Source: Paludibacteraceae bacterium (GTDB lineage: Bacteria > Bacteroidota > Bacteroidia > Bacteroidales > Paludibacteraceae). Taken from it: 64,000 nucleotides of DNA. This document shows positions 26,370 through 58,027 of the stretch, piece by piece. The notes under the pieces are model-generated. The model saw only the letters and a program-made list of their open reading frames with translations, made no database searches and was not told the origin of the DNA. Within the stretch, counting starts at the first letter, position 1. Each line of letters opens with the position of its first letter. The stretch covers positions 1-64,000 of the forward strand of contig JAKSNZ010000001.1 of assembly GCA_024405855.1 (NCBI GenBank), in the 5' to 3' direction. Both the position numbers and the translations under genes were made by a program.

Positions 26370-26394
26370 AGGATTTTTATTTGAATTTTCAACA

Positions 26395-26445
26395 TTATTT
26401 TCAATCAGTTTCACAGTTAACTTTATTTTCAATCAGTTTCACAGT
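26395..26445. repeat. Two direct repeats of 23 bp, 28-bp period
   Basis: TTTTCAATCAGTTTCACAGT occurs twice, within exact repeats 26395-26417 and 26423-26445, between divergent galE and ruvX. Confidence 0.85.
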
Positions 26446-26466
26446 CAAATTTCAATTAATTTGTTG

Positions 26467-26474
26467 TATTTTTG
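26467..26474 (+). promoter_or_regulatory. -7 box of ruvX
   Basis: TATTTTTG, 15 bp before ATG 26490. It overlaps the alternative upstream TTG start, so ATG 26490 is preferred. Confidence 0.5.
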
Positions 26475-31302: not shown

Positions 31303-31334
31303 TTTGCTTTTTTGCTCTCGATTGCGTAACTTTG
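31303..31334 (+). promoter_or_regulatory. Promoter of accessory cassette 1
   Basis: TTTG at 31303-31306, 20 bp, TAACTTTG at 31327-31334: a full consensus. It predicts a transcript starting near 31341 with a leader of about 355 nt before the peptide gene. Confidence 0.7.
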
Positions 31335-31353
31335 TCCCCGATATAAATAAAAA

Positions 31354-31395
31354 ATGACAAGACATAGAAGCCGAAAACGGCTTATATATAATTAG
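31354..31395 (+). CDS. Arg-rich leader ORF, copy 1 (MTRHRSRKRLIYN)
   Basis: A 13-codon ORF near the predicted 5' end of the cassette transcript. It recurs at 58092-58139 as MTRHRSRKRLTYKGW and at 55516-55518 onward as MLKHRSRKRPIYN. Between copies 1 and 2 the codons cga/cgg and ctt/ctc change silently, which favours translation. The segment also forms a small hairpin, AGCCG AAAA CGGCT. Five of 13 residues are Arg. It may be a regulatory leader peptide; no product has been shown. Confidence 0.5.
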   Translation: MTRHRSRKRLIYN

Positions 31396-31401
31396 GTGGT
31401 A

Positions 31402-31438
31402 AAATTACCCTCCTCGAGTGTATCGGGGGGGGTAATTT
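31402..31438 (+). promoter_or_regulatory. Leader hairpin, copy 1
   Basis: AAATTACCCTCC pairs with GGGGGGTAATTT around a short loop, 7 nt after the leader ORF stop. The equivalent hairpin is in cassette 2 at 58056-58091 with a different loop. No clean U-run follows, so it may be an attenuator, a pause site or a structural leader element. Confidence 0.6.
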
Positions 31439-31468
31439 GTTTATTATCAGCGAGTTATAATGTTTTTG

Positions 31469-31659
31469 TATTAAATTTAGTAAGTTATGACGTTCACAAA
31501 TTGCTCGCTGTTAACCCCTTCAAAACCACAGTTTTGTTCGGAGACTCACTAATGCGGAACTGACAAGTCAGTTCCCAGTTCGTGCCTCCAAAACTATGTG
31601 GTTTTGTGCGGCGGCTCGCAGTGTTCACTCTATAACTTACTAAATTTAACCGATTAACC
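31469..31659 (+). repeat. 191-bp palindromic element, copy 1 (identical inverted copy at 57837-58027)
   Basis: Within it, 31471-31488 (TTAAATTTAGTAAGTTAT) and 31632-31649 are perfect 18-bp terminal inverted repeats. The middle is the palindrome GGAACTGACAAGTCAGTTCC (31556-31575), and CAAAACCACA at 31521-31530 pairs with TGTGGTTTTG at 31597-31606. All 191 bases are identical to the reverse complement of 57837-58027, while the flanking leader and peptide genes differ. There is no coding potential and no transposase nearby. It could be a MITE-like element or a structured RNA element in the 5' leader. Confidence 0.9.
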
Positions 31660-31695
31660 GATTCACCAAAATATTAATTAAATAAATTTAAAATT

Positions 31696-31824
31696 ATGAA
31701 GAAAAATTATTCCGCTCCACATTTGGAGCAAGTAAAAATGGAGGCAGAGATGCCTGTAATGATAGGTTCTGCCGGTCCTTCCCCATCTAGAATGTCCAAA
31801 CTTTCAAGTTTCATTTGGGATTAA
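31696..31824 (+). CDS. 42-aa peptide with conserved N-terminal half (cassette 1)
   Basis: The product starts MKKNYSAPHLEQV, continues MEAEMPVMIGSAGP, and ends SKLSSFIWD. Its paralog at 57634-57771 shares the first 28 residues almost completely (NYSAPxxEQVxMEAEMPVMIGS), but the C-terminal parts differ entirely. This split looks like a leader plus variable core, as in secreted or modified peptide precursors. Short Bacteroidota proteins of a similar MKKxYxxPxxE...GS form exist but I know of no assigned function. It is followed after 15 bp by a lipoprotein gene with a strong AGGAGG. Confidence 0.75.
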   Translation: MKKNYSAPHLEQVKMEAEMPVMIGSAGPSPSRMSKLSSFIWD

Positions 31825-31839
31825 CAGGAGGCAGTGACA

Positions 31840-32907
31840 ATGAAAAAAATTACAGTTATAGTTACGGCACTTACTGTAGTGATGGCTGTGCTTGTTGGTT
31901 GTGAGAAGAAGAGCGTTGTCTCTGAATCAAAGCAATCAGCAGAGAAGGTGGCAATGACCTTCTACGCCTATCCGCAAGGAAGTGTGCGTACAGGATTGAT
32001 ACCTGATGATGTGCTTAAACTAAAGTCAGTGTGGACTGAGAATGATGAGATAGTCATATTCACAGCAAGTAACACTAAAGGTAGTGTTTTCTCACTTACA
32101 GATGGTGTTAATACAGACTACGGAACCTTTGAGGGAGAGGCGTTCAAGGCAGATTCATACGCCGCCGCATATCCAGTCTCTATGGTAAGCACCACAGACG
32201 GCAGCACTATGACGTTTGTATTGCCAAACAACCAAACCTATAAGGAAAACACTTATGAAACCAACACAGTGCCAGTGGTGGCATACACCAGCACAGACGA
32301 GTTGTATTTTGACAATGTTACAGGTATGCTGCGTGTGGGAATAAAGAGTGCTGAAGAGGCAACCATAACCAAGATGGTGCTGAAGGATAAAGTCAGCAGT
32401 TTTAAGTTGTGGGGTACATACAGATTTACGCCCACATCAACAAATGGTCTTGAGTATGTGTCAGGAGGCGACAACGCTATGGAACTAAAATTAGGTGCTG
32501 GCGTAAAACTTAAGTCATCAGACTACACATACTTCTATTTCTGTCTGCCAGTAGGAGCCATTGCAACGGGATTGACAGTTGATTTGGTGGATAGTAAAGG
32601 CAGAGTGGGAAAAATAGACTACGCAAAGACGGACAAGGTTATGGTTCTTAACGTGGGCAAGACCCTAATAGTGGAGAATGTGGAGTTTGTATCACCTACA
32701 AGCGTGCTTGACGGAGTGTCAAAAGAGGATGGCTCATGGTATGACCCAAGTACAAGCGTGCTTGACGGAGTGTCAAAAGAAGATGGGTTATGGTATGACC
32801 CAAGTGCAAGCGTGCTTGACGGAGTGTCAAAAGAAGATGGGTTATGGTATGACCCAAGTGCAAGCGTGCTTAACGGAGTAACAAAAGAGAATGGAGAATG
32901 GGAATAA
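31840..32907 (+). CDS. Fimbrillin-like lipoprotein with C-terminal 18-residue tandem repeats
   Basis: The protein has 355 aa. ATG 31840 is chosen over GTG 31834 because AGGAGG (31826-31831) sits 8 nt upstream of it. The lipobox is VLVGC (Cys near 21). Residues about 30-285 resemble the fimbrillin/Mfa-like fold of its neighbours (VWTENDEIVIFTA, AYPVSMVSTTDGSTMTFVLP, VPVVAYTSTDELYFDNVTGML). Instead of a FISUMP-like domain it ends with four 18-residue repeats (SVLDGVSKEDGLWYDPSA), the last one degenerate and ending NGEWE. It is probably a surface-exposed lipoprotein; its ligand is unknown. Confidence 0.88.
   Translation: MKKITVIVTALTVVMAVLVGCEKKSVVSESKQSAEKVAMTFYAYPQGSVRTGLIPDDVLKLKSVWTENDEIVIFTASNTKGSVFSLTDGVNTDYGTFEGEAFKADSYAAAYPVSMVSTTDGSTMTFVLPNNQTYKENTYETNTVPVVAYTSTDELYFDNVTGMLRVGIKSAEEATITKMVLKDKVSSFKLWGTYRFTPTSTNGLEYVSGGDNAMELKLGAGVKLKSSDYTYFYFCLPVGAIATGLTVDLVDSKGRVGKIDYAKTDKVMVLNVGKTLIVENVEFVSPTSVLDGVSKEDGSWYDPSTSVLDGVSKEDGLWYDPSASVLDGVSKEDGLWYDPSASVLNGVTKENGEWE
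32701..32907 (+). repeat. 54-bp coding tandem repeat (VNTR-like), four units
   Basis: Units begin at 32701, 32755, 32809 and 32863 (AGCGTGCTTGACGGAGTGTC). Units 2 and 3 are identical over 54 bp; unit 4 is diverged and truncated by the stop. Gain or loss of units keeps the reading frame. Confidence 0.95.
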
Positions 32908-32936
32908 TAAAACAATAACTAAAAAAATAAAAAACA

Positions 32937-34376
32937 ATGAAAAAGATTATTTACTTAACAGGAGCGGCATTGGTAATGCTGGCTTCAGTGTCTTGTGAAA
33001 AGAAAGAGACAGTAAAAGAGGCACAGTCATCAGTGGAGAAGACTGAAATGGTGTTTACAGCCACATCAGAAAAAGGTGGCTTAAAGACCACAATAAAGGA
33101 AGACGGCACTACAGCCGTATGGTCTGCAACAGACAATCTAAAGGTATTCACAGCAGAGGACACAAAGGGTAGTGTGTGCGATATAATAAGCGGAGCAGGC
33201 ACAACAGAAGCAGAGTTTGAAGGAATGTGTGCCAAGACAGGACCTTGGACGGCAATATACCCTGCATCATCTGCCAAGAGCTTTAGTGACGGAACCATAA
33301 CCCTCAAAATGCCTGAGATACAAACTTATGCGGAGAACACATTTGCACAGGGTGCAATGCCTTGTGTGGCATATTCATCTACTACAGAGTTTACATTCAA
33401 CCACTCATTTGGTGTGTTGAAAATTAACCTAAAGCTTAAGGAGGGCAAGACAGGTTCAGTTAAGAGTATAACGCTTACAACTAAGAGTTCAGAGAAACTT
33501 TGGGGTACATTTACAGTAAATCCGCAAAGCGGTCCGGCTGCTACAGAAAAGAGTGACTCAGAAGGTACAACATCAATAACCCTTGACTGTGGTGCTGGCG
33601 TGGCACTTAGCACAAGTGCAGCCACAGGTTTTTGGGTTGTAGTACCACAAGATGCGTTTGCAAGCGGATTTGACGTGACAGTAACATCAACAGATGATTT
33701 TCTGGCAACACTGTCAACATCAAAAGCCAACACCATTACAGCAGGCAAGGTTAAGGAGATGCCCATACATTTAATTGAGTTTAAGGATCCAACAAAGGGA
33801 GAGGCTATGATAGAAGACGGAACTATGGTTAAGTGGGTTCAGTTGTGGGAAGGTGGTCCTAAGTTTGCTGAGTACAATGTAGGTGCCAAATCTGTAGAAG
33901 AGTATGGCGACTACTTCCACTGGGGTGGCACGTATCGTATTAAAAGCGGAACAGTGTATACTGATGACCACTATACAGGAGAAGGTCCTCTTACAGGAGA
34001 TAATGATGCAGCCACCAAGTATTGGGGTTCCGACTGGCGTATGCCTAGATACGGTGAATGCGACTCTATAACTATATCCTGCGATCGAAAGTGGGTACAA
34101 AACTACAATAACACAAACGTTGCAGGAATGTTAATTACAGGCAAAGGAAAATACTCTGGTAACTCCTTGTTTTTTCCTGCTGGAGGTGACGGCTACAAAG
34201 CCACTTTCTCTAACAAGAATGTTGTAGGTAACTATTGGTCTTCGGATGGCAATGGTGCAGCCACTAATCCATTCGCTTGGTATTTTTGCGTAAGCAACAC
34301 CCCATACATTACCATGAAAACTCAAACCGCCCAACCCAACCGCGGGTACCTTGTGCGACCGGTTTTGGTGGAGTAA
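32937..34376 (+). CDS. Fimbrillin-like lipoprotein with FISUMP-like C-terminal domain (cassette 1)
   Basis: The protein has 479 aa. Lipobox SVSC (Cys at 21), then CEKKETVKEAQSSVEKT. Residues about 35-285 form a fimbrillin-like beta domain (AVWSATDNLKVFTAED, MPCVAYSSTTEFTFNHSFGVL). Residues about 295-479 resemble the Fibrobacter succinogenes major paralogous (FISUMP/DUF1566-like) domain: WGSDWRMPRYGECD, KYSGNSLFFPAGGDGY, NYWSSDGNG, RGYLVRPVL. It is closely related to the lipoprotein at 56180-57610. It is likely displayed on the surface; its function is not known. Confidence 0.88.
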   Translation: MKKIIYLTGAALVMLASVSCEKKETVKEAQSSVEKTEMVFTATSEKGGLKTTIKEDGTTAVWSATDNLKVFTAEDTKGSVCDIISGAGTTEAEFEGMCAKTGPWTAIYPASSAKSFSDGTITLKMPEIQTYAENTFAQGAMPCVAYSSTTEFTFNHSFGVLKINLKLKEGKTGSVKSITLTTKSSEKLWGTFTVNPQSGPAATEKSDSEGTTSITLDCGAGVALSTSAATGFWVVVPQDAFASGFDVTVTSTDDFLATLSTSKANTITAGKVKEMPIHLIEFKDPTKGEAMIEDGTMVKWVQLWEGGPKFAEYNVGAKSVEEYGDYFHWGGTYRIKSGTVYTDDHYTGEGPLTGDNDAATKYWGSDWRMPRYGECDSITISCDRKWVQNYNNTNVAGMLITGKGKYSGNSLFFPAGGDGYKATFSNKNVVGNYWSSDGNGAATNPFAWYFCVSNTPYITMKTQTAQPNRGYLVRPVLVE

Positions 34377-34407
34377 GTAGGCCACAGCTGTCATTATGAT
34401 ATTCAAA

Positions 34408-34435
34408 CGGGTCAAGGTTTCAAAATCTTGACCCG
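34408..34435 (+). terminator. Terminator hairpin of cassette 1
   Basis: CGGGTCAAG and CTTGACCCG form a 9-bp stem 32 bp after the lipoprotein stop. A related hairpin with the same CGGGTCAAGGTTTC arm closes cassette 2 (56073-56104). Confidence 0.65.
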
Positions 34436-54620: not shown

Positions 54621-55478
54621 TTAATCCTTTAGGCAACGCACAGTCCGACCGACATTCTTAGCAATGTAACCACTATCCAAAATGTCAGTATTATAAAAGA
54701 GGTTGCGACAGTAAGCGTTATAATCATCGTCATTAAATGGAGTAGCTGTCCAAAAAGTGATATAGTTACCAACGTAACTGACTACACAACCCATTGAACT
54801 GCCCGCAGGCAGAGCCGCAAAACCATAGGTGTCAAGCCCAAGTTTATAGATGTCATCACCATTATACCAACCTGATGTTGTCTTTAGATGCTTGCCTGCA
54901 GTACGTTTGCCTTTCTCATCTGTCTTTTCAATATAATCATTTAGAGTCTGCCATTCAGCATCTGTTGGTATATGCCATCCGTTAGGGCATATACCCTGTC
55001 TGCTGCCTGTGAAGGCAGTTGTTTGTTGCTGACCGTCAGCAACACCAACCGCCGCCGCCCAATTATATAGGTATCCTAATTGGGCAACCTGTTCATCAGT
55101 AAGGTTATCTCCATATTGTTGACTATATTGATCCCATTTACTCCTTTCTGAGGCATCGGTATAGTATGGGGTATTCACAAAATTTTCTGATGTTGTTAGA
55201 ATAGTGTATCTGCCCTCCTTGTATGCCTCTGACTGAGTGTCATACTTACTACAGCGGTAGTTCTCAGCCATCCATACCTGTGTACCAATGGTCACCTGCG
55301 GGTAGTCTGATGCCTTGCACTTCTCTTTTAATGACGGCTTGGTAAAACTGATACTGTCAACTTCTGATATAATGTACTCAATTTGTGTGCCATTATTGTT
55401 ATACACCCAAAACTTTGTCTGTGCCACCACCATAATTGGCAATAGCAGAAACATTGTAAAGCAAGTCAGTTTTCTCAT
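54621..55478 (-). CDS. Exported FISUMP-domain protein
   Basis: The protein has 285 aa with signal peptide (IMVVAQ). After a short N-terminal segment (FWVYNNNGTQIEYIISEVDS), a complete FISUMP domain fills residues about 55-285: VTIGTQVWMAENYRC, LGYLYNWAAAVG, ICPNGWHIPTDAEWQTLN, AGKHLKTTSGWY, GFAALPAGSS, FWTATP and GRTVRCLKD. The domain has a C-type-lectin-like fold in related families; its function here is unknown. Its start codon is overlapped by an Arg-rich upstream ORF homologous to the leaders of the two accessory cassettes. Confidence 0.9.
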   Translation of the reverse strand: MRKLTCFTMFLLLPIMVVAQTKFWVYNNNGTQIEYIISEVDSISFTKPSLKEKCKASDYPQVTIGTQVWMAENYRCSKYDTQSEAYKEGRYTILTTSENFVNTPYYTDASERSKWDQYSQQYGDNLTDEQVAQLGYLYNWAAAVGVADGQQQTTAFTGSRQGICPNGWHIPTDAEWQTLNDYIEKTDEKGKRTAGKHLKTTSGWYNGDDIYKLGLDTYGFAALPAGSSMGCVVSYVGNYITFWTATPFNDDDYNAYCRNLFYNTDILDSGYIAKNVGRTVRCLKD

Positions 55479-57836: not shown

Positions 57837-58027
57837 GGTTAATCGGTTAAATTTAGTAAGTTATAGAGTGAACACTGCGAGCCGCCGCACAAAACCACAT
57901 AGTTTTGGAGGCACGAACTGGGAACTGACTTGTCAGTTCCGCATTAGTGAGTCTCCGAACAAAACTGTGGTTTTGAAGGGGTTAACAGCGAGCAATTTGT
58001 GAACGTCATAACTTACTAAATTTAATA
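57837..58027 (-). repeat. 191-bp palindromic element, copy 2
   Basis: The reverse complement is identical at all 191 positions to 31469-31659. It has the same 18-bp terminal inverted repeats and central palindrome. It lies in the presumed 5' leader of cassette 2. Confidence 0.9.

Follow-up and report, generated by a model that had tools for sequence, protein, structure and literature searches.

Recurrent fimbrillin-like lipoprotein cassettes with a shared leader and a small peptide gene in Paludibacteraceae, and their probable kinship with targets of diversity-generating retroelements

Diversity-generating retroelements (DGRs) most commonly target genes for the DUF1566 domain, and their hallmark is the substitution of A by any nucleotide (PMC6642488). 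Human metagenomes have yielded a lipoprotein, itself a DGR target, that combines Mfa2 with Fib_succ_major domains, and DUF1566 targets were noted there to resemble 4EPS in structure (PMC4159848); the diversification of type V tip pilins by DGRs has been reviewed, citing Macadangdang et al. (PMC12632263). Few mutation machines of gut bacteria are as striking as these diversified pilin tips and, as far as we found, the expression of DGR targets, or the choice among many paralogues, is an open question. Here we describe two lipoprotein gene cassettes in a 64,000-nucleotide stretch of DNA (positions 1 to 64,000 of contig JAKSNZ010000001.1, assembly GCA_024405855.1; ‘the window’) from a Paludibacteraceae metagenome-assembled genome (MAG; 1.76 Mb, 95.65% complete; G000), named relatives of which, likewise Paludibacteraceae MAGs, come from horse faeces, and compare them with those of three congeners (G011, G012 and G013).

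With the DGR-diversified fimbrial lipoproteins of gut Bacteroidota, the cassette lipoproteins share a fimbrillin-like N-terminus, a C-type-lectin-like FISUMP/DUF1566 C-terminus and a lipobox and, in G011, a reverse transcriptase, a template, an accessory gene and A-specific variation; they differ in the many remote target paralogues per genome and in the peptide gene and shared leader/hairpin ahead of the target, and the window's own copies have neither reverse transcriptase, template nor adenine bias. Their likeness to type V pili (Fim/Mfa; BF1861 and BACOVA_04982 structures) lies in the N-terminal fold and the lipoprotein signal; a difference is that no stalk or anchor pilin genes are visible within the cassettes. 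We read the cassettes as DGR-family fimbrial lipoprotein operons that also carry a cognate small protein and an as yet undescribed leader element; a search of the open-licence literature turned up no account of this leader/hairpin or of the peptide family.

An ordered and recurrent cassette

Comparison of sequences and repeats shows that the two cassettes, which lie on opposite strands, share their parts and the order of these (cassette 1, 31.35-34.44 kb, plus; cassette 2, 58.14-56.07 kb, minus): a promoter, an Arg-rich leader open reading frame (ORF), a GC hairpin (‘hairpin 2’), a gene for a peptide of 42-45 amino acids, a lipoprotein gene and a terminator. The leaders (31354-31395, plus, encoding MTRHRSRKRLIYN; 58139-58092, minus, encoding MTRHRSRKRLTYKGW; each ending in a stop codon) are 91% identical over 43 nt, the peptide genes (31696-31824, plus, MKKNYSAPHLEQVKMEAEMPVMIGSAGPSPSRMSKLSSFIWD; 57771-57634, minus, MKNNYSAPKMEQVSMEAEMPVMIGSGAPVSKSNVAAMSVGATGTW) 81% identical in DNA over 95 nt, and the FISUMP-type lipoprotein genes (32937-34376, plus; 57610-56180, minus) share blocks of 75-82% identity, with the paired positions of hairpin 2 at 31402-31438 (plus) and 58091-58056 (minus); this likeness is far above chance. 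Related terminator arms close both cassettes (34408-34435, plus, the hairpin CGGGTCAAG..CTTGACCCG returned by a terminator scan; 56104-56073, minus, read from the sequence). Cassette 1 holds an extra, repeat-bearing lipoprotein of 355 amino acids (31840-32907, plus; lipobox VLVGC), with 54-nt tandem repeats near its C-terminus (32699-32901) and relatives at L138, L139, L124 and contig C50, and the leader of cassette 2 directly follows an MFS gene (59598-58144); in all of this the preliminary description was borne out.

Pattern and covariance-model searches collected 23 distinct copies of the leader and hairpin from the four congeneric genomes, which represent four species. A peptide gene comes next in 17 of the 20 copies with enough downstream sequence, followed by a lipoprotein gene wherever the contig continues; at the other three (L045, L037 and L063) the next gene after the leader is already that of a lipoprotein or FISUMP protein. 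The preliminary description, which took the cassettes for a regulated system, had named a random placement of peptide, leader and lipoprotein genes as the outcome that would speak against a unit; their placement relative to each other is not random, and the view that the layout looks regulatory is supported. The leader core, with two mismatches allowed, gave four perfect copies in the 1.76 Mb of the window's own genome, and a third cassette there (contig C50, leader at C50:2880) carries the peptide gene and two lipoprotein genes. We also observed a leader hairpin interrupted by a contig end (G000:C21:22632-22709), which suggests that such repeats interrupt the assembly and that it has missed further cassettes.

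One listed component did not stand. The ‘identical palindromic element’ (31471-31649, plus; 57847-58025, minus, located by repeat comparison and genome search) is instead a dispersed palindromic repeat of 179-197 nt, lying in the spacer and forming no part of the unit; between the two cassettes it is 99% identical over 197 nt, and its predicted DNA fold has a z of -6.2. It matches nine places in the genome (contigs C56, C23, C5, C4 and C45 have copies besides those of the window), joining a conserved core to copy-specific, self-complementary outer arms, and as a dispersed repeat we rejected it as a functional part. Among all cassettes, only the window's two carry it, the third cassette on C50 being without it; a diverged relative occupies the corresponding position in two cassettes of G011 (L043 and L075), and the spacer between hairpin and peptide gathers many kinds of repeat.

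Both peptide genes belong to a family present in all four genomes, with weak matches in G014, G015 and three more, in which the N-terminal half is conserved and the C-terminal half variable. Variation at the peptide C-terminus follows that of the adjoining fimbrillin domain, at the lipoprotein N-terminus (Mantel r 0.55, p 2e-4), while the leader sequence has no clear correlation with the same domain (r 0.14, p 0.08). From this cognate pairing comes a concrete hypothesis for an unannotated family of small proteins, that of a fimbrillin-domain partner, and the peptide may act on the pilin. The peptide had no Pfam match above cut-off, and its placement in a known family was rejected, the NCBIfam matches being weak and spurious.

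The lipoproteins and a retroelement in the same genus

The cassette lipoproteins carry a lipobox and weak matches to Mfa_like_1 and Lcl_C/Fib_succ_major. For the cassette 1 protein (Mfa_like_1 E 4.7e-7) an AlphaFold2 model (pLDDT 84) was recognised by Foldseek as a fimbrillin fold (BF1861, 3sy6, E 7e-9; also 4eps), and the cassette 2 protein, 52% identical to it, gives weak Mfa_like_1 and Fib_succ_major matches; a sequence search against solved structures matched nothing. Like type V tip pilins, these lipoproteins combine a fimbrillin fold with a ligand domain at the C-terminus, and sequence and model together point to a putative role as adhesins. Stalk or anchor pilin genes were not seen within the cassettes.

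The preliminary description had overlooked two things: these lipoproteins are related to type V tip-pilin-like proteins that DGRs diversify, and one G011 cassette is physically a DGR. In that cassette (contig C6, cassette at L215:5457) the leader, the peptide gene and a lipoprotein gene with a variable region are followed by a MutS_I-like accessory gene (E 0.0018), an AAC-rich template (L215:7955-8085) and a reverse transcriptase (L215:8161-9369; RVT_1 E 3e-14, motifs IGNLTSQ and YVDD) of DGR type, beside its target. Paralogue C-termini vary at NNC codons, and six variable regions in total differ from the G011 template mainly at adenines: the DGR-adjacent one is mismatched at 14 of 36 template adenines and at 4 of 70 other sites, that of L120 at 17/37 against 2/77 (p 2e-8), three others at 17/40 against 5/76, 18/38 against 6/71 and 19/37 against 9/70, and one from G012 at 20/41 against 11/77. 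The window's own genome also has a clear adenine bias in at least three FISUMP genes (C12:121456, p 2e-5; one on C6, p 8e-5; C12:122940, p 4e-4), and a marginal one at C1:117054 (p 0.05).

The window's cassettes themselves speak less readily for this kinship. Measured against the G011 template, which is a congener's and maybe not their own, cassette 2 has no significant bias (23/41 at adenines, 28/76 elsewhere; p 0.05) and cassette 1 has none (p 0.55), and no reverse transcriptase, accessory gene or template was found in the window's own genome (tblastn for the first two; genome fetched in stretches, MAG 95.65% complete). With no adenine bias of their own and no reverse transcriptase in their MAG, the two count as paralogues of DGR targets and not as demonstrated targets. 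That the cassettes form an operon family with kinship to DGRs is a reading that we hold with considerable confidence.

For the SVRCLRN type of variable region a second template is probable, but a limited search did not find one. Behind another G011 cassette lies a broken reverse transcriptase (L120:7681-8460, equal to L354:10797-11576, on G011 C6), a second, decayed DGR, and at L126 (G011 C6:35493-47573) at least five genes for FISUMP lipoproteins stand in tandem. A pattern scan for reverse transcriptases gave a single hit outside the real one, which was false.

The leader and the control of expression

The leader ORF is 13-15 codons long, with zero indels among the 23 copies and an ATG or GTG start in all, and in 20 copies a gap of 0-1 nt separates its stop codon from the hairpin 2 that follows, against 7 nt in the remaining three; the cassette 2 leader scores 120.6 bits with covariance model R1. 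A TAnnTTTG box, of the Bacteroidota -7 promoter type, is found about 20 nt upstream of nearly all of them (TAACTTTG in cassette 1, 31327-31334, plus). Within the ORF is hairpin 1 (AAGCCG-AAAA-CGGCTT; 31368-31383, plus), whose stem is intact at 6/6 pairs in 19 of 23 copies and whose loop is variable. Hairpin 2 follows (AAATTACCCTCC..GGGGGGGGTAATTT in cassette 1, with a weak T-rich tail, 78 bits with covariance model R2 and a terminator-like scan hit; 78.6 bits in cassette 2, where it stands directly behind the stop codon), and after it comes a conserved box (TTATTATCAGCGAGTTATAA; 31442-31461, plus), at a spacing kept fixed across genera.

Drawing these observations together, we propose that every cassette forms an operon, belonging to a dispersed family, for lipid-anchored, type V tip-pilin-like adhesins, built of a fimbrillin-fold N-terminus and a C-type-lectin-like FISUMP/Lcl_C C-terminus, with the cognate small peptide encoded just upstream of the adhesin and a common 5' leader ahead of the peptide. 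In the same genus a DGR rewrites the lectin end of paralogous cassettes, its AAC-rich template being reverse-transcribed with errors at A and copied into the variable region. Expression would most likely be set in the leader, where a ribosome on the short Arg/His-rich ORF may end or stall beside the stable hairpin, its position deciding whether RNA polymerase reads through into the peptide and adhesin genes, that is, ribosome-controlled attenuation. Taken as a whole, from adhesin family and cognate peptide to DGR kinship and attenuation, this is the explanation that we favour, and think fairly probable; the attenuation step by itself we put forward tentatively, at somewhat short of an even chance.

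As in attenuators of the thr/his leader type, hairpins follow a short ORF with a bias towards one or two residues; in contrast to these, the genes downstream encode surface adhesins and not biosynthetic enzymes, the U-tract behind hairpin 2 of the Arg leader is weak, and a competing antiterminator is not clear, inspection by eye offering only alternatives of 4-5 bp, too weak to claim. Several points weigh against the proposal: hairpin 2 is terminator-like but has no strong U-tract, which makes it a putative terminator at most; the stem of hairpin 1 alone could account for much of the leader's conservation, because loop changes alter amino acids freely; and linked duplication can also give rise to the correlation between peptide and lipoprotein. 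The ORF keeps its start, stop and length in 23 copies and is R/H-rich in another genus, and hairpin 1 constrains the same bases.

The main rival, which we consider unlikely, is that the leader acts as a structured RNA only, with both hairpins and the box serving to stabilise, process or pause the transcript, and the short ORF being incidental. It would fit the near-invariant stem of hairpin 1, with a loop that varies together with residue changes (K, L, E or R at codon 8), the presence of both U-G and U-A at one pair of hairpin 2, and the persistence of hairpin 2 and box across genera, in some without a clear leader ORF; it sits poorly with a start codon and a stop near the hairpin preserved through 23 copies with zero indels, with the retention of an R/H-rich ORF in genus g21 despite different nucleotides, and with the alternative leader ORFs, described below, in front of the same kind of cassette.

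A pattern for hairpin 2 (CCCTCCN{5,22}GGGGGGGGTAA) matched six times in the window's own genome, zero times as a reversed control and once in 392 other Bacteroidales genomes, the exact pattern being essentially absent from this order-wide sample. The own genome has seven hairpins 2, one truncated by a contig end, and all six complete ones lie within 5' leaders of secreted or surface genes, oriented from a TAnnTTTG-like promoter towards the gene. This consistent orientation, together with a hairpin at the same position in other genera where the sequence has diverged, argues against a passively spreading repeat, or a hitchhiker on recent duplications, of no regulatory role; such an origin would suit multi-copy cassettes whose leader sequence has no clear correlation with lipoprotein type and whose spacers are rich in REP-like inserts, and we judge it very unlikely.

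In a 300-genome sample of the bacterial family, hairpin 2 and box have matches in 16 genomes of six genera. In g21 the same hairpin is preceded by an unrelated nucleotide sequence, which still encodes an R/H-rich peptide (MTHSLRTHRRRHNK), and in two g14 genomes (L141 and L142; G131 and G117) hairpin and box stand ahead of UpxY-type NusG-paralogue genes, one of these loci being at the head of a sugar-transferase locus. Hairpin-aided loading of UpxY at Bacteroides capsule loci was reportedly described by Saba et al. in 2024, a study to which PMC12632263 refers. As with the UpxY/UpxZ-controlled capsule leaders, a surface-structure operon has a hairpin in its 5' leader, and hairpin 2 and box might recruit a NusG paralogue (UpxY/LoaP type) to escort polymerase through the operon; unlike them, the window's genus yielded no UpxY, a UpxY query having no match in 16 congeners, and a search of G000 for NusG gave just the housekeeping copy, next to secE and tuf. 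Moreover, the hairpin is absent from 28 of 30 UpxY loci tested in the family. We rejected this recruitment for the window's genus, and regard it as most improbable.

Alternative leaders and minor observations

Three peptide and lipoprotein cassettes in G011 and G013 have a different leader, MIN(TH)nT..., encoded by a CA microsatellite and followed by a U-tract terminator, and two further copies lie ahead of other genes (the five loci being L178, L179, L181, L182 and L183, each with a terminator behind). A CA repeat encodes Thr and His in any frame, and slippage therefore alters only the leader's end. Judged by its sequence, this (TH)n leader with its canonical terminator has the layout of a textbook attenuator of the thr/his type. 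The strongest pointer to a role for translation of the leader is this use of unrelated leader-ORF modules by the same cassettes.

The same leader stands ahead of target, accessory gene, template and reverse transcriptase in G011, and we entertain as a rather doubtful idea that entire DGR operons are gated by a leader whose translation senses amino acids; if so, nutrient state would control both adhesin display and retro-mutagenesis, and every fimbrillin type would have its own cognate mini-protein. Ahead of such targets, genus-wide and at a complete DGR, the same leader module and a cognate small protein keep recurring, which makes the control of targeted hypermutation testable.

An Rfam search at the leader gave no family above its gathering score; the best match, sRNA41 (33.5 bits against a gathering score of 45), was judged to be chance. 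Elsewhere in the window, a degenerate leader ORF without hairpin 2 (from 55520, minus; leader core match, 33 bits with R1) runs into the next start codon, directly ahead of a FISUMP gene (ORF 54621-55478; TIGR02145, 2.6e-32), fused upstream of it so that the whole spans 55520-54621. A tandem pair of near-identical 28-nt direct repeats (26391-26446) lies upstream of an ORF at 26472.

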